21,434 nt of DNA from a virus. A model generated the notes under the pieces. That model made no database searches, was not told the origin of the DNA, and worked only from the letters and a program-made list of their open reading frames with translations. This document shows, piece after piece, positions 6,125 to 18,174 of the stretch. The position numbers were made by a program, and so were the translations under genes. Every line of letters begins with the position of its first letter. The first letter of the stretch is position 1. The stretch spans positions 1-21,434 of the IMG/VR virus record IMGVR_UViG_3300009163_000208; one strand, written 5' to 3'.

Positions 6125-6245
6125 CCGCCTTGCGCCACTGGTCCAGCAGCATCTTGTTGTCGGCCCTGAGCCGTTGGTTCTCATCGGTCAGGTCGTGGGC
6201 TAGGCGCGCTAGGTTTTCTCTTTGCCACAGGGCGAAATCAGCCAT
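6072..6245 (-). CDS. Small coiled-coil protein, 57 aa
   Basis: ATG at 6245 overlaps the helicase stop by 8 bases (ATGGCTGA), with AAGGA 6 bases upstream inside the helicase gene. The sequence starts MADFALWQRENLARLAHDL and continues with DENQRLRADNKMLLDQW, a charged amphipathic helix with heptad-spaced Leu. The strong ribosome binding site and coupled start support a real gene. The 3' end runs antisense to the regulator at 5924-6124 for 53 bases. Probable role: small phage accessory protein, perhaps partnering the helicase; function unknown. Confidence 0.65.
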   Translation of the reverse strand: MADFALWQRENLARLAHDLTDENQRLRADNKMLLDQWRKAVTERCQDEAPAGLPDPR

Positions 6246-7623
6246 TTGTTTTCCTTCGGCGCTTCATGGCGTCCATCAAAATATCTTGTACCTCGCGCTT
6301 GGTCTCCAAGCGCTCTAACACCAGCTCGTCTACGGTCCCCTTGGCCAGTATCCGGTGGATGAACACCGGTCTGTCGTGGCCAGCCTGCATCTGCCGGGTG
6401 GGCCCGATCCGCTCGATGATTTGGAGGTGCTCTTCCAAATTCCAGTTGACCGCAAAAAACACCAGTATGTTGCCGCCGTCCTGCAAGTTAAGGCCGTGCC
6501 CGGCGCTTGCCGGGTGGGCGAACATCAACGGTATTTTGCCCTCGTTCCAGTCGCGTATGGTCTGCGGGTTCTTGTCCAAGTGCCGCCCCTGCGGGAAGGC
6601 CTTGAGCAGCCGTGCAAGGTCGCTCCTGAAGTTGTAGGCCACCAGCACCGGCATGCCCGCGGCTTCTTCCACAATCGAGTCTAGGGCCTCTATCTTGGCC
6701 TTGTGCAGCTCGCGCCACTCAGCGGCGCCCTCACCCACGTACATGGCCCCGTTGGCTATCTGGAGGCACTTCTGGGTCTTTGCGGCGGCATTGAACGCCT
6801 CGACCTCGTGCCCAGAGTCCAGCGACGTGAACATCTCTTTTTCCATGTCCTTGTAGTGCTTGCGGGCCTTGGGCGGCAGCGTCACCATGATGTCGTTGAT
6901 GATGGGCTTCTTTAGGTCAAACCAGTCCTTGGCCTCGATGGTCAGGCACACGTCGCGCAGCTTGTCCTGTATCTCTTTCTGGGCGTGGCGCATGGGCTCC
7001 AAGCCAAAGCCGTCACGGGCCGTCTGAAACCAGCGCTGGCTAAAGGCCGTGAAGGTGCGCCCGAGGCGGTTGCCTGCGTCAAGGAACCACGCCTGCCCCC
7101 ACAGGTCTTTGAGGCCGTTGCTGGCCGGTGTGCCGGTCAGCTCAATGATCCGGTTGATGCGAGTGTGCGCGATAGAGCCCAGCGCCTGCGCGCGCTTGCC
7201 GCCTTGGCGTAGCCTAAACGACTTGACCCGCGTGGACTCGTCCAGCACCACGGTGCGGTAGGGCCACTTGTCGCCCCAGTAGGCCACCAGCCAGACCAGT
7301 TGCTCGTAGTTGGTGGTATAGACTTGCGCCGGGCTGCGGATGGCCTCTATGCGCTCTTTCTCGGTGCCCGTGATGCACACCACGTTTATGCCGCGCAGGT
7401 GTTCCCACTTGAGCACCTCGTCGGGCCACGTGCCGGTGGCCACGCGCAGGGGCGCCACGACCAGCACCGGGTCGTCCTCCACCATCAAGAGCGCCTCAAT
7501 GGCCGTGAGTGTGGCCACGGTCTTGCCCGTGCCCATACCGGCCCACACCGCGCAGCGCTTGCTGCCCAGTATGTGCTCGATGATCATGCCCTGATACGGG
7601 CGGGGGGTGAATACTTGTCTCAT
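6238..7623 (-). CDS. SNF2-family DEAD-like helicase/ATPase, 461 aa
   Basis: Superfamily 2 ATPase of the SNF2 type used in phage replication modules. Motif I is GMGTGKT (residues 29-35); motif II is VVLDEST (DEST 128-131 replacing DEAH); motif III is LTGTPASNGL (162-171). The helicase C-terminal half carries SAGHGLNLQ and motif VI-like QIIERIGPTRQ near residue 410. Length matches phage SNF2 proteins without accessory domains. It should couple ATP hydrolysis to movement on DNA, perhaps in replication or recombination. Its start overlaps the VRR-NUC stop (ATGA), and no strong ribosome binding site is visible, so it is probably translated by coupling. The VRR-NUC plus SNF2 pair is a recurrent phage arrangement. 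Confidence 0.93.
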   Translation of the reverse strand: MRQVFTPRPYQGMIIEHILGSKRCAVWAGMGTGKTVATLTAIEALLMVEDDPVLVVAPLRVATGTWPDEVLKWEHLRGINVVCITGTEKERIEAIRSPAQVYTTNYEQLVWLVAYWGDKWPYRTVVLDESTRVKSFRLRQGGKRAQALGSIAHTRINRIIELTGTPASNGLKDLWGQAWFLDAGNRLGRTFTAFSQRWFQTARDGFGLEPMRHAQKEIQDKLRDVCLTIEAKDWFDLKKPIINDIMVTLPPKARKHYKDMEKEMFTSLDSGHEVEAFNAAAKTQKCLQIANGAMYVGEGAAEWRELHKAKIEALDSIVEEAAGMPVLVAYNFRSDLARLLKAFPQGRHLDKNPQTIRDWNEGKIPLMFAHPASAGHGLNLQDGGNILVFFAVNWNLEEHLQIIERIGPTRQMQAGHDRPVFIHRILAKGTVDELVLERLETKREVQDILMDAMKRRRKTNG

Positions 7624-7889
7624 GCTAGTAGCGCGTCCACGCCCTCCATGCTGTCGATGACCTCAACAAACTCGCCCAGCCTGCGCATGCGGTTGTGCTC
7701 GCGTATCTGCGTGGAGCGGGGCTTGACGCCGGGCGCCTTCAGCTCAATCCAGATGGGCTGGCGCCCGGGCAGCATGACCCGGCGGTCCGGTGCGCCTACG
7801 TGGCCGATCCACTTAGCTTTGCGTATCTCACCGCCCAGCTCTTTTACCCGCTTGACGAGGTACTTTTCAATGTCAGATTCGCGCATCAT
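7620..7889 (-). CDS. VRR-NUC domain nuclease, 89 aa
   Basis: Stand-alone VRR-NUC (PD-(D/E)XK) endonuclease. The core is visible: GAPDRR (residues 32-37, catalytic D35), then IELKAPG (E49, K51) and a downstream Gln (Q61). Stand-alone VRR-NUC proteins of phages resemble Holliday-junction or flap-type nucleases, so it may resolve branched replication or packaging intermediates. Start: two ATGs are adjacent. AGGA lies 4 bases before the first and 7 before the second, so residue 2 may be the true start. It overlaps the polymerase stop and is followed by the SNF2 helicase with a 4-base overlap. About 90 aa is typical of the family. Confidence 0.92.
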   Translation of the reverse strand: MMRESDIEKYLVKRVKELGGEIRKAKWIGHVGAPDRRVMLPGRQPIWIELKAPGVKPRSTQIREHNRMRRLGEFVEVIDSMEGVDALLA

Positions 7890-9976
7890 TCTTTCCTGTA
7901 TCGGTGTGTCTCAAATCCCGCTGCTGCCAGCGGCATGTCTTGTGCCCACGAGGGCGGTGTGGCCAGCAGCGCGGCCATCTGGTCCACGTTGTACTCGGGG
8001 CTGTCTGGCGCCTCGGCGATGATCTCGTCATGCACCGTCAGCACGATCTGGTAGCCCGCCGCTTCGATCAGCGGCATGTTCGCGGCCATCACGTCGCGGG
8101 CGATGGCTTGGCACAGGTTCTCAAAGAGCTTGCCGCCGTGGGTGTGGACGCGCACCCACTTGCGCGTGAACTGGTCGATGCCCATGTAGGTGATGCCGTC
8201 CTCTACAACCTTGGGCGACGGGTAGCACAGCGTGCGGCCCGAGGGCAGCGTGATCAGCAGCCAGCTCTTCGCGGCCTTGATCTTCAAACCCAGCGTGGTG
8301 TAGGTCTGGCCCCGGGTGTGCAGGGCCTGTAGCACCACGTTCTTGAGCCTGCCCCAGTAGCCTGAGATGTTTGGGTGCGCGATGCGCCACGCGCGCTTTA
8401 GCACGTCGCAGGCCACGAAGGCGTCATCGGACAGCCCGTAGCGCGGGCGCTTGTCCTTGATGGCCCACTCCAAGAACTTGTCGGCCTTGGCCACCAGCTC
8501 CTCGTCGGCCAGCTCCAGTACCTTTATGGCAAGGTCTTCGAGGTTGATGCCGTAGGCCCCGGCAAAGGTCGCAAAGGCCCCCACGCCGCCCTCGTAGGCC
8601 AGCGCCAGCTCTTGGACCTTGCCCACCTGCCGCTGGTCATTGTTTACATCATCGGACTTGACGCCAAAGGACTTGCTGTACGCCAACTTGTACAAGTCAG
8701 GTCCTAGCCTAATTGGTTTGCCCTTGTTGTCTATGCCGATAATGGTGTCAAAGTCACGGAAGGCCTTGAGCTTCCACTCCTCGTTGGCCAGCCACGCCTG
8801 CACCCGGCCCTCAATGTTGGCCAAGTCGGCAATAACTAGTTTCTGCGCATCGGGCGCCACGATGCAGCTACGGATGGCCGAGCTGATCAGCTCCATGGTG
8901 TTGTCCGTTATCAAGTGGGCGCACTCGGCCTTGAGCGCCTCGATGCCTAGGTCGATCTGCTCTTGCTTGAGCGTTGGCCGGGGCAGGTTCTGGGGCTGGA
9001 ACAGCCGCCCGGCCCAGCGGCCAGTGCGCGCCGCGCCATTGAACTGCAACAGCCCGCGCAGGCGCCCATCCGCGCTCGTGCCCTTGCGCAGCACCTTGTA
9101 CTTGGCCGTGCTGGTGGAGCTGGCCTGCAAGCGCACCGAAAGCAGCTCCTTGAGCGCCGAGGGTACGTCCATGGCCAGCGTCTTCTCCACGGTGGCCATC
9201 TGGAGGTCCGGCATGTCGATACCAAAGGCCTCTAGTATGTGTAAGCGCAGTGCTGCGCCTTGCGTGGTATTGGCAACGTGGCCGTCGGTCAGCTCCACCG
9301 AGCGCTCGCTCAGCTCGTGCTGCGCCTTGCTCACGGCGTTGATGGCCGCGTCCACCAGCTCCATGTCGATGGCCACGCCGCGGTCGTTGATGGTCTGGTC
9401 TAGCTGCCACAGCGCCGTCTCGGCGGGGGTCATGTTCACCATGGGCAGGCGCTGCATCACTTCGCGCATGGCCTCGATGTCCGAGGCCGCGTAGGCCTTG
9501 AAGCGCTCCCACTCCGCCGGGTGTGTCTCGCGGGTGGCCCGGCGCAGGATGCGGTTCTTGCCCAGCGGCTTGCAAAAGAGCTGGATCAAGCGCTTGCCGT
9601 CCTTGTCCTTGGCCTTGTCCGTGGGCAGGCCCAGCACCTCGCACAGCATGCCCAAGGACGCCGGTAGGCCGTGGCTCAGGGCTTGGACCATGGTGTCGTG
9701 GATGCGCGCTGGGGAAATGTCTACGCCCCACGCATGCCGGATCACCGTGCGGTCGAAGTGGCTGTTATGGATCACCACCTTGACCTTGGGGTCCCTGAGC
9801 ACGGCCCTTATCCCGTCGGGCCGGGTATCGGGCAGAGTAAGGTCTATGACCTGCACGGGCTCATCGTCCCACGCATACGCCACCAGCAGTATCTCTGCGT
9901 CTGCGGCATACACGTGCGTGCCATGGGCGATGGGGGTCTCGGAGTAAGTCTCCAAGTCCAGATACAAAGTCTTCAC
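7886..9976 (-). CDS. Family A DNA polymerase with 3'-5' exonuclease, 696 aa
   Basis: Replicative phage PolA. The N-terminal DnaQ-like exonuclease has ExoI LDLET (D7, E9), ExoII HNSHFD (D75) and ExoIII YAASD (Y162, D166). The polymerase part has motif A DLANIEGR (D384, E389), motif B RQVGKVQELALAY (R449, K453, Y461) and motif C VHDE (648-651). There is no 5'-3' exonuclease domain. The residue matching E. coli Pol I Phe762 is Leu457. Translation starts with GTG at 9976; no in-frame ATG lies upstream and no strong ribosome binding site is seen, so coupling to the 66-aa gene six bases upstream is likely. It belongs to the phage group in which PolA is encoded beside DUF2815, DUF2800 and VRR-NUC/SNF2 genes. 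Confidence 0.96.
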   Translation of the reverse strand: MKTLYLDLETYSETPIAHGTHVYAADAEILLVAYAWDDEPVQVIDLTLPDTRPDGIRAVLRDPKVKVVIHNSHFDRTVIRHAWGVDISPARIHDTMVQALSHGLPASLGMLCEVLGLPTDKAKDKDGKRLIQLFCKPLGKNRILRRATRETHPAEWERFKAYAASDIEAMREVMQRLPMVNMTPAETALWQLDQTINDRGVAIDMELVDAAINAVSKAQHELSERSVELTDGHVANTTQGAALRLHILEAFGIDMPDLQMATVEKTLAMDVPSALKELLSVRLQASSTSTAKYKVLRKGTSADGRLRGLLQFNGAARTGRWAGRLFQPQNLPRPTLKQEQIDLGIEALKAECAHLITDNTMELISSAIRSCIVAPDAQKLVIADLANIEGRVQAWLANEEWKLKAFRDFDTIIGIDNKGKPIRLGPDLYKLAYSKSFGVKSDDVNNDQRQVGKVQELALAYEGGVGAFATFAGAYGINLEDLAIKVLELADEELVAKADKFLEWAIKDKRPRYGLSDDAFVACDVLKRAWRIAHPNISGYWGRLKNVVLQALHTRGQTYTTLGLKIKAAKSWLLITLPSGRTLCYPSPKVVEDGITYMGIDQFTRKWVRVHTHGGKLFENLCQAIARDVMAANMPLIEAAGYQIVLTVHDEIIAEAPDSPEYNVDQMAALLATPPSWAQDMPLAAAGFETHRYRKE

Positions 9977-9982
9977 TACGTG

Positions 9983-10183
9983 CTACCGGTACGGGTTTTT
10001 TGGCTGCAATTGTGGTTGCGGTGTATTGCTCAGGGCGCGTATAACATCCGCAATACCTTCGAGCAAGGCCTCTGATTGGAGCAAACGGCCCACCAGCTCG
10101 GGGTTTTTCTTGGCGTAGCCGTCACCAAGGATTTCGTCTATCGCTTCGATGGCGTCCCATAGTTTGTTCTTAATTTTGCTCAT
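9983..10183 (-). CDS. Small helical protein of unknown function, 66 aa
   Basis: ATG at 10183 (MSKIKNKLWDAIEAIDEIL) is preceded by GGAG at 6 bases. A longer in-frame extension to 10270 has no ribosome binding site and would run into the SSB gene, so it is rejected. The protein is mostly helical and acidic, with a Pro/Gln-rich tail (TPQPQLQPKNPYR). It lies between the SSB-like gene and PolA, so it probably acts in replication, but no family is recognised. The 83 bases between it and the SSB gene hold only its leader and a weak GTGG/CCAC hairpin. Confidence 0.7.
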   Translation of the reverse strand: MSKIKNKLWDAIEAIDEILGDGYAKKNPELVGRLLQSEALLEGIADVIRALSNTPQPQLQPKNPYR

Positions 10184-10266
10184 AAATTTCTCCGTGTATG
10201 TGTGTAGGTGGGGGTACTTGCCGCTCGTGGATGAACCCACAATGGTGGCGGCTTTCCCCCCAAAAA

Positions 10267-10803
10267 TCAAACCAAGTCGTCTGCGCTCAGGTCGTCAAAG
10301 TCGTCAGAGTCGGCCACGCCGCCGCCTGCAAAGCTCTCGCCGTCCTTGTAGAACTGCACACCCATCAGCGTGGCGTTGATGCGCTTGCCGTAGTTGTTGT
10401 CCTGCACCCACAGCTCGACGCTGGCGTTGACGTAGCAGCCAGCGTAGGGCTTGCCGTCCTGCGCCGTCAGCGGGGTCTTGTTGACGTCGATCACCAAGGG
10501 CTTGATCGCGTTGCGGGCGCTGATGTACATCATGCCCTCAAAGCCGTCGTAGTTGGCCTTGAGGTCACCGCTGTGCAGGCAGGTCTTGTCGGCTGCGCGG
10601 ATGGTCTTCATCATGGCGTCGGCCTTGGCGCCCCACTTCTCTTTGGCCACGGCGTCGATCGCCTCGGTGATGACCTTGATCTGCGGGTCCTTGGGGCTGA
10701 TCAGGAACGCCGCGGAAAAGGCAGGCTTGCCCTCGCCGTTGACGGTCTTGGCCTCAAAGAGCTGGGGGAACGACAGGCGCACGTTGTTAAGTTTTACTTT
10801 CAT
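10267..10803 (-). CDS. DUF2815/Enc34-type ssDNA-binding protein, 178 aa
   Basis: Starts MKVKLNNVRLSFPQLFEAK, the characteristic N-terminus of the DUF2815 family (Enc34_ssb), whose member from Enterobacter phage Enc34 binds single-stranded DNA through an OB fold. The middle contains YDGFEGMMYISARN and YAGCYVNASVELW, conserved family blocks. The C-terminus is very acidic (DSDDFDDLSADDLV), as in SSBs that recruit partners through an acidic tail. GGAG 7 bases upstream supports the start. The role is to coat ssDNA at the fork and recruit polymerase or nuclease; partner identity is inferred from gene order. Confidence 0.92.
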   Translation of the reverse strand: MKVKLNNVRLSFPQLFEAKTVNGEGKPAFSAAFLISPKDPQIKVITEAIDAVAKEKWGAKADAMMKTIRAADKTCLHSGDLKANYDGFEGMMYISARNAIKPLVIDVNKTPLTAQDGKPYAGCYVNASVELWVQDNNYGKRINATLMGVQFYKDGESFAGGGVADSDDFDDLSADDLV

Positions 10804-10819
10804 GGGGAATCTCCAAAGG

Positions 10820-11974
10820 TTAAGGGTTTGTCACGTCGTCAAAATCAGAAGCGGTCGCTGACGTAACCAGTGCGGGACGCTTATCGGAAACAGGGGCCAC
10901 CGAGGGCGAGCCCTCGGACTGGGTGATCAGCTCGGCGATCTTGGGCCACTGGCGCGGTCCGATCTCGCCTGCCTTGGCCAGCTTCTCAAGGCTGGTGGGG
11001 CTGGCCAGCTTGTAGTCGTACATCTGGTCGTGCTTGATGCGCATGGACTTGAGCAAGGCCTCGGCGTCCTCTGCGCTGGTCCACTGGCGGTTGCCCTTCT
11101 TGCCCTGCACCAGCTTGTAGCCGGGCACAGGCTCGCCGGCCAGCAAGCGCCGCTCTACCTCAGCACGCACGGCCTTGACCCACTTCTCGATCATGTCGGC
11201 GTTGGTCATCACACGGGCCAAATCGTCGTCATCCGCCGTCGCGGGGACCACGGCATCGAAGTCGTTCATCACCGCTGTGCGGATGGCCGGGCACGCGGCC
11301 TTGGCCCTGCACCACTGGCAACCCTTGGGGGAGGGCACGAGCGGCGCGTCCGGCTGGTAAGTCAGCTCGGCCAAGAACTGCACCTCGGCGGCGAAGTTGT
11401 TCAGCTCGTCTACGCTCAGGCTCCACTCAGGCGCCGCGTTCAGGCGGGGCTGGACGATGCCAACGCGCACGCGCTGGAAGTCGTAGGCGATGTCCCACTC
11501 CCTGAGCACACCGCAGGCGTACATCAGGAGCTGCGGGTTGTTTTCGGCCTCCACTTCGACGCCGCGCCCGAACTTGGCGTCCAGCACGATCAGCTCGTCT
11601 GGTGTCAGGATCACGGCGTCGGCAGTGCCTTGCGCGCCGGGTTCCCGGGTCAGGTGGTCGATGCCCACGCGCTGCTCCACGAGCAAGCGCCCATTGGTGG
11701 CCTTGACAACAGAGCGCACGTGGTCCACGTACTTTTGCACGGCCTGCGCCTGCTCTACCTGCAAGATCAGCCCGGTCTCGGTGTCGGTCACGCCGATGTA
11801 GCCCGAGGCGTCAGTGCCTGCGGCCAAGCAGTGCGCCGCCACGGTGTGCATCATCGTGCCCTCCTCGGCGCTGGACGATGATGTGTCGGGGATGTCCTTG
11901 GATAGCGCCACCGAGCCGGGGCAGGTCATCCAGCGCACTGCGCTGCTGGGTGATAGCTGGGCGTGTTCGCTCAT
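10820..11974 (-). CDS. DUF2800 RecB/Cas4-like nuclease, 384 aa
   Basis: PD-(D/E)XK nuclease of the DUF2800 family. Visible motifs: RWMTCPGS (Cys18), EEGTMMH (E38, H43), GTADA (D119), VLDAKFG (D132, K134), QLLMYA (Q148, Y152) and CQWCRAKAAC (Cys219, 222, 228). The four Cys fit a 4Fe-4S cluster as in AddB/Cas4-type nucleases, and the acidic/Lys set is complete, so an active exonuclease is expected. The C-terminal 100 residues form an extra helical region ending in ASDFDD. It probably processes DNA ends in recombination-dependent replication together with the SSB next to it. The start overlaps the upstream gene by ATGA. Confidence 0.92.
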   Translation of the reverse strand: MSEHAQLSPSSAVRWMTCPGSVALSKDIPDTSSSSAEEGTMMHTVAAHCLAAGTDASGYIGVTDTETGLILQVEQAQAVQKYVDHVRSVVKATNGRLLVEQRVGIDHLTREPGAQGTADAVILTPDELIVLDAKFGRGVEVEAENNPQLLMYACGVLREWDIAYDFQRVRVGIVQPRLNAAPEWSLSVDELNNFAAEVQFLAELTYQPDAPLVPSPKGCQWCRAKAACPAIRTAVMNDFDAVVPATADDDDLARVMTNADMIEKWVKAVRAEVERRLLAGEPVPGYKLVQGKKGNRQWTSAEDAEALLKSMRIKHDQMYDYKLASPTSLEKLAKAGEIGPRQWPKIAELITQSEGSPSVAPVSDKRPALVTSATASDFDDVTNP

Positions 11975-15002: not shown

Positions 15003-15252
15003 CTACCAAAAGATTCGCCTGCGTGACCTAGCATGGCGCTGTAACGAGAAGAAGCCCGACTATAGTTACAACAACCCGCTCCTTGATGCCTACATCGCGG
15101 AGCTGCAAGTGACGCACTCCGAGCTGTTCCACAACAGGGCTTCGCTACCCAAGCGCGTGTTCATGGACCAGCCCCTGCGCGCTGTGCCCTACAGCCACGC
15201 GCTGCGCTCTGTAGAGAACTCAACACTTAGCATGATCAGGAACACACAATGA
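14992..15252 (+). CDS. Small phage protein, 86 aa
   Basis: ATG 14992 (MFDSYQKIRLRDLAWRC) follows AAGGA at 8 bases and overlaps the previous gene by 11. The sequence is rich in Leu, Arg and Asn with no recognised motif. Residues NPLLDAYIAELQVTHSELF form a probable amphipathic helix. It ends in an ATGA overlap with the regulator at 15249. Base composition returns to high GC here. Function unknown. Confidence 0.68.
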   Translation: MFDSYQKIRLRDLAWRCNEKKPDYSYNNPLLDAYIAELQVTHSELFHNRASLPKRVFMDQPLRAVPYSHALRSVENSTLSMIRNTQ

Positions 15253-15461
15253 CCGGAATAGAAGAAGCCATCCACGCCGTGGGCTCGCAGGCCCAACTGG
15301 CCGACATCCTAGGCTGCACCCAACAGAACGTCTCCACCATGCTCAAAAAGGGCTACGTGCCCACCAAGTGGATCAGGGCGGTGGAGCAGGCCAGTGGCAT
15401 CCCCCGTGAGCGCCTGATCAACCCGGCACTGGCCGAGCTGCTGGCGCCCAACGACATCTGA
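15249..15461 (+). CDS. YdaS/Cro-like regulator, 70 aa
   Basis: The helix-turn-helix is clear: AIHAVGSQAQLADILGCTQQ then NVSTMLKKGYVPTKWI, followed by the family tail VEQASGIPRERLINP. It starts by ATGA overlap. This is the YdaS_antitoxin/Cro type that binds short inverted repeats as a dimer. It differs in sequence from the 5924-6124 protein, so the phage carries two such regulators, possibly acting on different operators. It closes the first early gene chain, before the primase-helicase. No YdaT-like partner is seen. Confidence 0.85.
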   Translation: MTGIEEAIHAVGSQAQLADILGCTQQNVSTMLKKGYVPTKWIRAVEQASGIPRERLINPALAELLAPNDI

Positions 15462-15566: not shown

Positions 15567-17615
15567 ATGACAAACACAACGCCAGACCTGCCACCGATCG
15601 GACAGGTCTTTAACGGCTCCAACATACCCGCGGAGCTGAAGGCCTTGCGCCGCTGGGCGGTCTGGAAGGCCATCTGGAATGAGAGCCGCCAGAAGTACGA
15701 CAAGGTGCCCTACAGCGCCATGCACCGGGGGCTCTCGACCAAGAACGTGACCGACTGGGGCGACTACGAGAGCGCCGCGGCCACGCTGCGCCTGAACCCC
15801 ACGCGCTACCACGGGCTGGGGCTGGTGCTCACCAACATCTCAGACGTGGTAGGCATCGACCTTGACAACTGCCGCACCGATGGCCAGATCGCGCCGTGGG
15901 CGCGCGAGATCGTCGAGTCCATGGGCAGCTACACCGAGATCAGTCCCAGCGGCACGGGGCTGCGCATACTGGCCCACGGCAGCGCCGACATGGACTGGAA
16001 CAACCACGACGTGGGCATCGAGGTCTATGGTGGCCACACGGCCCGTTTCCTCACGATCACGGGCCACACCTCCAAGCCCCGGCCCATGGTCCCGGCCAAG
16101 GCTGATGTGCTCACCGCGTTGTTCGAGCAGCATGGCAAGACGCGCAAGGCCGCGCCCGTGATCCAGATTGCCATGCCCGAGCTGATCCACGAGCTGGCGC
16201 TGCCCGACGTGCAGGACATGGAGCTGCCAGAGGCCACCAAGGAGCTGCTGCTGCACGGCCCGGGCGAGGACGTTGGGGACCGCTCTGGCGCGCTGCACGC
16301 CGCTGGGGTCCAGCTCTACAGCGCCGGGTACGACGACGCCACGGTGCTGTCCATCTTCGCGGCCAGTCAGCCGGTGATGGACATAGCGCTGTCCCACCGC
16401 CGGCAGGACCCCGAGCGGGCTCTGGCCTACCTGTGGGTTGAGCATTGCCAGAAGGCCAAGCCCAAGGCGATCACCCGTGACAGCATCCTCTCAGACTTTG
16501 ACGACCTCACCAGCGACCCGGAGGTCGCCGAGCAGCTAAAAAAGTCCAACGAGGCCAAGGCCGTCAAGGAGAGCCGGTTCAAGCTGGAGACGGCCTCCGA
16601 GTTCGTGGTGCGCCGCAAGGCCTCGTGGATCATCAAGGGAGTGCTGCCCAACGCCAACCTAGGCGTGTTTTATGGGGCTTCCGGCTCGGGCAAGTCGTTC
16701 TTTGTTTTTGAGATGCTGGCCGCGGTGGCCCGGGGCATCGAGTGGCGTGGCCACAAGACCCGCAAGGCGCGCATCTGCTGGGTGGCCGCTGAGGGCCAAG
16801 AGGACATGCGCAAGCGCGTTGCCGGGTACTGCGCGCACCACGGCATCGACCCCAACGACTTTGAGATGCACTTCGTGAGCAACGCACCCAACCTGCTGGA
16901 CATAGACGACACCAAGGCCTTGGTCAAGCAGATCATGCTCAAGGGCCAGTTTGACATGGTGGCCATCGACACGCTGGCCCAAGTCATGCCCGGCGGCAAC
17001 GAGAACAGCGGCGAGGACATGGGCAAGGTGCTGGGGCACTGCAAGGAGATCACCCGCGTCACGGGCGCCATGGTCGGCCTAGTCCACCACAGCGGCAAGG
17101 ACGAATCCCGGGGCGCCCGGGGATGGTCAGGCCTACGGGCAGCGGCAGACTTTGAGTTTGAGGTCATACGCTCGGACGAGGAGCGTGTGGCCATCGTCAC
17201 CAAGATGAAGGGCGGGGCCGATGGCGAAGAGTTTGGCTTCAGGCTAGAGACCATCGTGGTGGGGCAGGACGAGGACGGCGACGACGAGACGACCTGCGTG
17301 GTGTCCTTCACCGACGGCAGCAGACAGTCCGTGGCGGCGTCCAAGGGGCCCAAGGGCGACACCAACGCGCTGGTGTTCCAGACGGCCAAGGACCTTATCG
17401 ACTTCAGCGGGGCGAGCCCGGTGACCGAGAACGAGCTGGTCACGGCAGCGGTCAGCAAGATGCCGGTGGGTGATGCCGGCAAGCGCGATACACGTCCCCA
17501 GATGGCCCGGCGCAGCTTGAAATCGCTTATCGAGGGCGGGTTTTTGGCCCAGAACGCCCATGGCCACGTGACTATCTTTGGTGGCTCGAAGCCGCAAAAC
17601 GATGCGAGTACGTAA
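15567..17615 (+). CDS. PrimPol-like primase fused to RepA/AAA_25-type helicase, 682 aa
   Basis: Bifunctional replication protein. The N-terminal archaeo-eukaryotic primase-like region has VVGIDLDNC (D98, D100), EISPSGTGLRI (124-134) and IEVYGGHTARFLTITG (151-166). The C-terminal ATPase has Walker A GASGSGKS (370-377) and Walker B DMVAIDTL (463-470), then HHSGKDESRGARGWSG, typical of hexameric RepA/AAA_25 helicases. The last 75 residues look like a winged helix. It should prime and unwind for the PolA encoded on the other strand. The position of the usual PrimPol motif II His holds Arg (R133), which may reduce priming. Start: ATG with GGATGAACA upstream, a weak site. The array at 17624 follows directly. 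Confidence 0.92.
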   Translation: MTNTTPDLPPIGQVFNGSNIPAELKALRRWAVWKAIWNESRQKYDKVPYSAMHRGLSTKNVTDWGDYESAAATLRLNPTRYHGLGLVLTNISDVVGIDLDNCRTDGQIAPWAREIVESMGSYTEISPSGTGLRILAHGSADMDWNNHDVGIEVYGGHTARFLTITGHTSKPRPMVPAKADVLTALFEQHGKTRKAAPVIQIAMPELIHELALPDVQDMELPEATKELLLHGPGEDVGDRSGALHAAGVQLYSAGYDDATVLSIFAASQPVMDIALSHRRQDPERALAYLWVEHCQKAKPKAITRDSILSDFDDLTSDPEVAEQLKKSNEAKAVKESRFKLETASEFVVRRKASWIIKGVLPNANLGVFYGASGSGKSFFVFEMLAAVARGIEWRGHKTRKARICWVAAEGQEDMRKRVAGYCAHHGIDPNDFEMHFVSNAPNLLDIDDTKALVKQIMLKGQFDMVAIDTLAQVMPGGNENSGEDMGKVLGHCKEITRVTGAMVGLVHHSGKDESRGARGWSGLRAAADFEFEVIRSDEERVAIVTKMKGGADGEEFGFRLETIVVGQDEDGDDETTCVVSFTDGSRQSVAASKGPKGDTNALVFQTAKDLIDFSGASPVTENELVTAAVSKMPVGDAGKRDTRPQMARRSLKSLIEGGFLAQNAHGHVTIFGGSKPQNDAST

Positions 17616-17623
17616 AAAATTGC

Positions 17624-17738
17624 TTGCAACAGTTGCAACAGTTGTGCAACAGTTGCATCTTGTTGCACGTTGCAAGTGCAACAGTTGCAACACTTACCTT
17701 TAGGTAGTGTTGCATGTTGCAGAGGTTGTTGCGTTGCA
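17624..17738. repeat. GTTGCA/TGCAAC repeat array (iteron-like)
   Basis: In 115 bases I count 13 hexamers: GTTGCA starting at 17632, 17652, 17662, 17669, 17684, 17709, 17716 and 17733, and TGCAAC starting at 17625, 17634, 17645, 17677 and 17686. Two sites (17632-17639, 17684-17691) are full palindromes GTTGCAAC. Spacing is irregular (7-25 bases), unlike CRISPR. It begins 9 bases past the primase-helicase stop and is followed by AT-rich DNA. Candidate origin iterons or an operator cluster. Confidence 0.85.
17686..17714. repeat. Long hairpin inside the repeat array
   Basis: TGCAACACTTACC pairs with GGTAGTGTTGCA across a TTTA loop: 12 base pairs with one bulged T. It incorporates two of the array hexamers in its base. 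No T-run follows. It could be a cruciform or ssDNA-origin structure, or an RNA hairpin. Confidence 0.7.
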
Positions 17739-17889
17739 GTTGGTAATTATTTGCAAAAACTATCGGTGGAAAGAAAACAATAGAATTATTTTACAAAAAA
17801 GATGTTGTAACAACAAAAAGCCGTGTACACTTCAGCCATCGCAGCAAAAACTGCGGTACTTCTCAACACAAACACATTGGAGTATCAAA
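17739..17889. other. AT-rich tract and leader, no gene
   Basis: Positions 17741-17820 have 20 G/C in 80 bases (25%), against about 60-68% in neighbouring genes. There are A-runs at 17784-17790 and 17814-17819. No coding frame with a ribosome binding site is seen. Next to the repeat array this suits a DNA-unwinding element. The remaining bases to 17889 hold the leader and ribosome binding site of the next gene. Confidence 0.6.
17803..17831 (+). promoter_or_regulatory. Operator-like palindrome and weak promoter
   Basis: TGTTGT and ACAACA flank a single A (17803-17815), again the GTTGT/ACAAC pentamer pair. A possible -35 TTGTAA (17805-17810) lies inside it, with TACACT at 17826-17831 as -10, but the spacer is only 15 bases. 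It lies upstream of the gene at 17890. The operator is clearer than the promoter. Confidence 0.4.
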
Positions 17890-18174
17890 ATGGCTAAAGC
17901 AAAACTGGTGGTGGAATTGAACGAAGGCTCGGTGGACCGTCTGGGCGTACTGCTCGCACAGATCAAGGACCTGACCGACCAAGCCGACGCGATCAAAGAG
18001 GCGATCAAGAAAAGCGGTGAGTCGCAAGAGGGCTCGCTGTTCAAGGCCACGCTGGTGGACATGGACCGCAAGGTATTTGACAAGGAGTTTTTCATTGAGC
18101 AGTATGGCGTTACTACCTACGATGCCTACACCAAGAACACTGTCTGCGTGTCAGTTCGCGTTACATCCCGTTAA
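17890..18174 (+). CDS. Conserved-looking phage protein beside DUF932, 94 aa
   Basis: ATG 17890 (MAKAKLVVELNEGSVDRLGV) follows TTGGAG at 7 bases. A longer in-frame start at 17707 runs through the repeat array and AT-rich DNA and is rejected. Residues 18-45 are a charged helix (LLAQIKDLTDQADAIKEAIK). The second half (SLFKATLVDMDRKVFDKEF, ending TVCVSVRVTSR) is probably beta-rich. Its position directly before the DUF932 gene suggests a shared operon. Function unknown. Confidence 0.75.
   Translation: MAKAKLVVELNEGSVDRLGVLLAQIKDLTDQADAIKEAIKKSGESQEGSLFKATLVDMDRKVFDKEFFIEQYGVTTYDAYTKNTVCVSVRVTSR

Follow-up and report, generated by a model that had tools for sequence, protein, structure and literature searches.

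A dense cluster of short repeats, followed by an AT-rich tract, stands immediately behind the gene for a 682-aa primase-helicase in the virus record analyzed here (21,434 bp at 58% GC, hereafter the window), raising the question of whether this locus is the replication origin of the phage and which protein reads the repeats. A sequence-only reading had proposed an origin from 13 GTTGCA or TGCAAC hexamers within 115 bases right after the gene and from 80 bases at 25% GC in a GC-rich genome. This description is accurate: exactly 13 hexamers occupy 17625–17738 (114 bp), directly 3′ of the ORF, whose stop codon lies at 17613–17615, and positions 17741–17820 have 25% GC against 58% for the window, the 80 bp from 17740 representing the window minimum of 23.7%. 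Outside the array, the hexamers occur eight times in 21.3 kb, corresponding to 0.043 expected per 115 bp. The densest 6-mer per 200 bp in the whole window reaches 13 copies at the array and never more than 6 elsewhere, and in simulated DNA with the same dinucleotide statistics (n = 500) the top 6-mer count per 200 bp averaged 3.3, with a maximum of 7. Two characters of iteron origins could thus be found, namely repeats far above chance (13 in 114 bp vs. about 0.04) and an adjacent AT-rich region, since the GC minimum of the window borders the array. The repeat unit is better described as the 7-bp TGCAACA than as a hexamer, and in the array's second half the units form a hairpin (Table 1). Elsewhere in the window, a divergent replication operon on the minus strand (6241–11974) encodes a helicase, a PolA-like DNA polymerase, a Gp2.5-like SSB, and an exonuclease.

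Table 1. Features in and around the repeat array, in window coordinates.
Feature	Position	Strand	Basis
YdaS/CI-like HTH gene, 5′ of the primase-helicase	15249..15461	+	Pfam YdaS_toxin, E 2.3e-11
Primase-helicase, 682 aa	15567..17615	+	Pfam AAA_25; PHROG DNA primase / helicase-primase; PDB primases
C-terminal winged-helix domain (predicted), aa 597-672, proposed origin-binding; recognition helix ~aa 643-656	17355..17582	+	
Array, left half: direct TGCAACA units at 17625, 17634, 17645; inverted units ~17651-17674	17625..17675	+	Unit mapping
Right hairpin: units at 17677, 17686; stem; TTTA loop 17699-17702; inverted units at 17708, 17715	17677..17721	+	
Degenerate inverted units, one or two more	17727..17738	+	Unit mapping
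AT-rich tract, candidate unwinding element	17740..17820	+	Lowest-GC 80 bp in window; conserved in relatives
ORF of 94 aa following the AT tract; not tied to the repeat word	17890..18174	+	

The 682-aa protein appears to combine three domains in one polypeptide. Its sole Pfam match, AAA_25 (PF13481; E 1.8e-32, 113 bits vs. a cut-off of 27), identifies a RepA/AAA_25 helicase core of the RepA family at about aa 345–580, and by sequence the RSF1010 RepA structure 1g8y is matched at E 0.69 only. An AEP-type prim-pol domain spans about aa 18–200: PDB prim-pols match aa 19–216 with E values of about 1e-22 to 1e-18 (7ola, 8e-22; 6a9w, 8e-19), and by this homology the N-terminal region is a predicted primase. 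The C-terminal ~75 residues are predicted to form a winged helix. AlphaFold2, run on 27 aligned C-termini, returned winged-helix topology with a mean pLDDT of 79.7, and among the leading Foldseek matches of this model in the PDB winged-helix domains predominated, with no E value below 0.001, the winged-helix domain of P4 being absent among the fold matches listed. At the sequence level, the C-terminal domain matched nothing in the PDB as a single sequence and only weakly as a profile (E 0.66 and above), and Pfam yielded no significant family for it, with scattered weak HTH matches.

Relatives of this protein numbered 60 from viral contigs, with 98–44% identity, and the genome contigs searched yielded one match only, which was distant and partial. 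An array lies behind the helicase gene in nearly all relatives with enough downstream sequence; none was counted in L055 or in L062 (a short bacterial contig), and L056 has a weak one. The layout is constant in about 50 relatives. Counted from the first loop base, direct units stand at about −74, −65, and −54, then comes a group that varies and holds units in either orientation, then a direct pair at −22 and −13, the loop itself (TTTA or TATA), inverted copies at +9 and +16, in many cases one more at about +29, and the AT-rich tract beyond. What changes is the word. The window and its closest relatives have TGCAACA, and other loci TGGATCA, TGCTTCA, TGCACCA, TGCTTCC, TGCCACA, or TGCACTT; nearly all copies in a given genome agree in their word, which is replaced in almost all of them at once. 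A conserved array beside the primase-helicase of related phages, which the sequence-only reading had suggested looking for, is therefore present, often in another word; because many relatives carry the same array in such a form, judging its absence by GTTGCA alone would misfire. Looking for the exact word in other phages returned mostly unrelated sequence.

Several loci show variations around this layout. The array begins after one additional small ORF in L023, L025, L027, L032, L040, L047, and L060. In the first four of these, the ORF placed between helicase and array resembles the 94-aa protein of the window, so that the position of the array relative to this ORF can shift. In L033, L034, L040, L047, and L051, a separate small ORF between the helicase stop and the array carries a second copy of the C-terminal winged helix; an in-frame domain duplication in L033, L034, and L051 was considered and rejected, because a stop codon sets off the second small ORF. 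The stand-alone copy is reminiscent of Cnr, the stand-alone regulator of P4, and might regulate the array or compete for it. A TGCAAC array with a C-rich hairpin was also seen at about 17089–17240 in L324 (G023; also L075), on a contig without a P0001-like helicase; since this array sits at the contig end, the gene next to it is missing from the contig. The contig of L007 (L182–L184; 56,760 bp) is bounded by a direct terminal repeat at least 100 nt long, and this relative of about 57 kb is therefore probably complete.

Comparison among the relatives points to the C-terminal domain of the primase-helicase as the reader of the word. Between loci with different words, this domain (aa 597–672) is 21–45% identical at any core identity, as in L011 and L020, where the cores are 95% and the C-terminal domains 34% identical. 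Between loci sharing a word, it is 42–97% identical, reaching 91% in L008 and L041 despite a core identity of 62%. Mapping the words onto the core tree takes twelve changes, and onto the C-terminal tree six, fewer than which no tree could need. With core identity controlled, the partial correlation with sharing a word was 0.82 for the C-terminal domain and 0.77 for the recognition helix, vs. 0.19 for the primase, 0.28 for the helicase, and −0.23 for the linker. The most word-dependent residues include 642, 644, 646, 648, and 650, which lie within the predicted recognition helix or next to it. In four pairs of loci (L011/L020, L022/L024, L026/L036, and window/L009), DNA identity is high over the helicase core, drops to about 0.4–0.5 between roughly −280 and +140 relative to the stop codon, and recovers in the AT tract and the next gene. 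Across related phages, the repeat word and the protein tail have been swapped as a pair on many occasions, and the C-terminal domain is a candidate iteron-binding domain.

Neighboring genes do not follow the word, the same partial correlation being 0.03 for YdaS, 0.04 for the 94-aa ORF, and −0.11 for DUF932, and nearly identical copies of each of the three occur alongside different words. The sequence-only reading had named a YdaS-like protein as a possible binder of the repeats, and several of these phages do have an HTH gene of this kind just 5′ of the helicase gene, whose product could read the array as an operator or for toxin–antitoxin control. Nevertheless, the YdaS proteins of L046 and L004 are 100% identical and their words are TGGATCA and TGCAACA, respectively, so that YdaS is excluded as the determinant of word specificity, and the reading as a whole is left with a negligible probability.

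The same design is not confined to these relatives. Arrays behind a helicase gene could be found in the cultured Roseobacter phages CRP-811 and CRP-823 (CTACAA), Idiomarinaceae phage 1N2-2 (GGTACA), BcepGomr (AAAATA), and Salicola phage CGphi29 (GGGACA), and in the uncultured record ct3Oc712 (TGGGAC). For Vibrio phage 1.076.O (CGGACA) and CGphi29, the unit counts lie within the shuffle range and the calls rest on the hairpin too; no array was seen in Caulobacter phage GB2A or in ctyzp037, both of which are distantly related. Two further helicase families, those of 1N2-2 and the CRP phages, were expanded, and both switch words. In the 1N2-2 family, for example, L226 and L227 have cores 94% and C-terminal regions 16% identical, with different words. 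In the CRP family, smaller steps are seen between helicases with 99% identical cores, with a one-base word change in nearly all units and few C-terminal substitutions in L295/L302, and likewise a two-base change in L288/L291. Rough word classes number about 8 in the 1N2-2 family and about 14 in the CRP family, hence more than 20 words overall, in which some AT-rich words are possibly inflated by composition and, in family I, L212 and L214, counted as different words, probably have one overlapping word.

Joint switching could in principle be a by-product of recombination between the conserved flanks, namely the helicase core and the AT tract, with no functional link between domain and word. The two lie within about 400 bp of each other with breakpoints at conserved sequence, and given this adjacency some joint replacement by a single tract is to be expected to some degree even without contact. 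However, the 94-aa ORF is about equally near the array on its other side, yet it does not co-switch. Among about 50 loci there are no mismatched combinations of domain and word, and the halved number of word changes on the C-terminal tree and the high C-terminal identity of same-word loci even at a core identity of 62% also stand against a mere by-product, as does the recurrence of switching in two more families, including small word changes with few C-terminal substitutions. The absence of mismatches, the sharp right border, the small matched changes, and the three families together argue for a functional link, and we regard recombination alone as a very unlikely explanation.

The right half of the array, taken as single-stranded DNA, folds at −16.5 kcal/mol (z = −5.4). 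Across 26 aligned relatives, 87% of cells pair and 16 of 19 pairs have changed on both sides in a compensatory manner, counts that are if anything low because the MAFFT alignment mis-registers a few rows, and shifting the partner by one column halves the pairing. In the unit parts of the stem, the inverted repeats would by themselves produce pairing, which confounds the signal there. Outside the units, however, the four pairs of the tip likewise vary on both sides (CCCC/GGGG, TACC/GGTA, CCTC/GAGG), which favors a single-strand structure or cruciform, besides protein sites. In the hairpin tips of L016, L023, L025, and L027, TATA or a longer TATATATA palindrome replaces TTTA; 1N2-2 and Vibrio phage 1.076.O have comparable CTATATAG loops. 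A strong hairpin with compensatory changes would also suit an RNA element, such as a structured 3′ UTR, a terminator, or a regulatory RNA, in which the words would co-change only for pairing. Against this, the units outside the hairpin co-change as well, the word follows a predicted DNA-binding domain, no U-run comes after the hairpin, a terminator scan gave only a chance-level site elsewhere, and Rfam has no significant family at the array, which together make an RNA element extremely unlikely.

The AT tract is kept in the relatives, with a mean lowest-80-bp GC of 0.29 vs. 0.58 for the locus, and it may also house a promoter that drives the next operon. Between the array and the 94-aa ORF (17741–17890 of the window), a conserved TTGTA...TACACT (TATACT in relatives) looks promoter-like, and a promoter consensus scan of this stretch gave a weak minus-strand match only. 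The array might accordingly be read as an operator or autoregulatory site for a promoter in the AT tract, bound by the primase-helicase or another regulator, and no origin at all. Iteron initiators often autoregulate, and the tract, promoter-like by eye, lies just 5′ of the small ORF. Nevertheless, the word is independent of this next gene (partial correlation 0.04), and L052, L054, and the cultured phages have a different next gene with the array still behind the helicase. In L023, L025, L027, and L032, the array matches the helicase domain despite the intervening small ORF. Furthermore, the word's probable reader is the helicase itself, which bears the predicted primase and helicase domains, and an operator alone is therefore an unlikely, if the least unlikely, alternative.

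With a primase-helicase as its probable reader, the array would most simply serve as an origin on which the replicative helicase is assembled, and we consider it highly probable that the array is the replication origin of the phage, or that the replicative helicase is at least loaded there. The origin proposed by the sequence-only reading gains strong comparative support from the position of the array and the co-change of word and C-terminal domain, which an iteron-binding initiator would be expected to show and from which we infer origin activity itself. GC skew in five relatives of 47–57 kb was below about 1%, with no switch at the array, and is too small to locate an origin. As a possible mechanism, the C-terminal winged helix would bind the 7-bp units beside its own gene, as the very strong covariation suggests, and protomers on units of fixed phase could form or load a RepA-type hexamer. 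The strands might open in the adjoining AT-rich tract and/or where the hairpin is extruded, and the exposed strand could be primed by the N-terminal prim-pol, possibly at the hairpin, for which RSF1010, pRN1, and NrS-1 provide precedents. Since domain and units are adjacent, they could be exchanged as one cassette, which would give related phages different, presumably mutually blind, origins.

Our results raise, more tentatively and with slightly more doubt than conviction, the possibility of a widespread undescribed class of phage origins in which a primase/RepA-helicase bears its own exchangeable origin-reading domain, selection drives repeated switching among many specificities, and the word behaves like an incompatibility or immunity type. 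If so, satellites, origin-directed nucleases, defence systems, or co-infecting relatives could be the selecting agents. The arrays point to the origin of a large phage group whose hosts or environments include alpha-, beta-, and gammaproteobacteria, and no described origin for this group was found among open-access papers. With many small DNA-binding domains each matched to a 7-bp word between conserved flanks, these phages constitute a natural experiment, by which phage origin specificity becomes testable through the swap of one domain, and provide data on how winged-helix specificity changes. For annotation, a repeated word plus a CTTTAG-like hairpin just 3′ of a helicase gene could serve as a rule.

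Among known systems, the alpha protein of phage P4 has an SF3 helicase, whereas the window protein is of the AAA_25/RepA type, and P4 alpha gave no sequence match and no fold match among those listed. The likeness to P4 alpha with its ori1/crr lies in a primase, a helicase, and a winged-helix origin-binding domain in one polypeptide acting with repeated sites, although the P4 alpha primase is Toprim-type (PMC4234260) and the prim-pol predicted here AEP-type. The oriV of RSF1010 likewise involves a RepA-family hexameric helicase, iterons, and a primase acting at hairpins (PMC4234260), but through three separate proteins (RepA, RepB′, and RepC) instead of one fused protein. ORF904 of pRN1 shares the prim-pol/helicase/winged-helix order and a stem-loop origin just 3′ of its gene, conserved in structure and not in sequence (PMC4234260); unlike the window phage, pRN1 has an SF3 helicase and no iterons. 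The prim-pol of NrS-1 initiates at specific template motifs (PMC8718748).

The closest layout is that of SaPIs and PICIs, with an initiator helicase, sometimes fused to a primase, a 3′ origin, and an AT-rich region (PMC6092414; PMC7581432). The C-terminal domains of SaPI Rep and SCCmec Cch2 bind iterons just 3′ of their own genes (PMC7581432), and in Gram-negative PICIs the region tested as an origin, with its iterons and AT-rich stretch, directly follows pri-rep (PMC6092414). The window has such an origin-like array immediately 3′ of its helicase gene. However, SaPI and PICI helicases carry DUF927 or D5/Primase_Cterm, and here Pfam finds AAA_25 alone; the PICI origin has two iteron sets around its AT region, whereas here the AT tract is one-sided, with only a 4-nt AT loop between the unit groups. 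Beyond that, SaPIs and PICIs are satellites or islands, in contrast to a free phage with a 7-bp unit and a covarying hairpin.

The selection behind such frequent switching is the question that these phages raise, and the worked-out precedent found is that of PLE and ICP1. In PLEs, satellites of Vibrio cholerae, the DNA-binding domain of the initiator also covaries with the origin through module exchange, and only cognate RepA/ori pairs replicate, but with a RepA_N initiator, iterons of about 30 bp, and two specificity groups described (PMC8263062). The earlier statement that no described phage origin is known to have this repeat may hold for the word, but the layout is known from SaPIs and PICIs (PMC6092414; PMC7581432); what is new here is a helicase of the RepA type, a hairpin that covaries, and how broadly specificity has switched.
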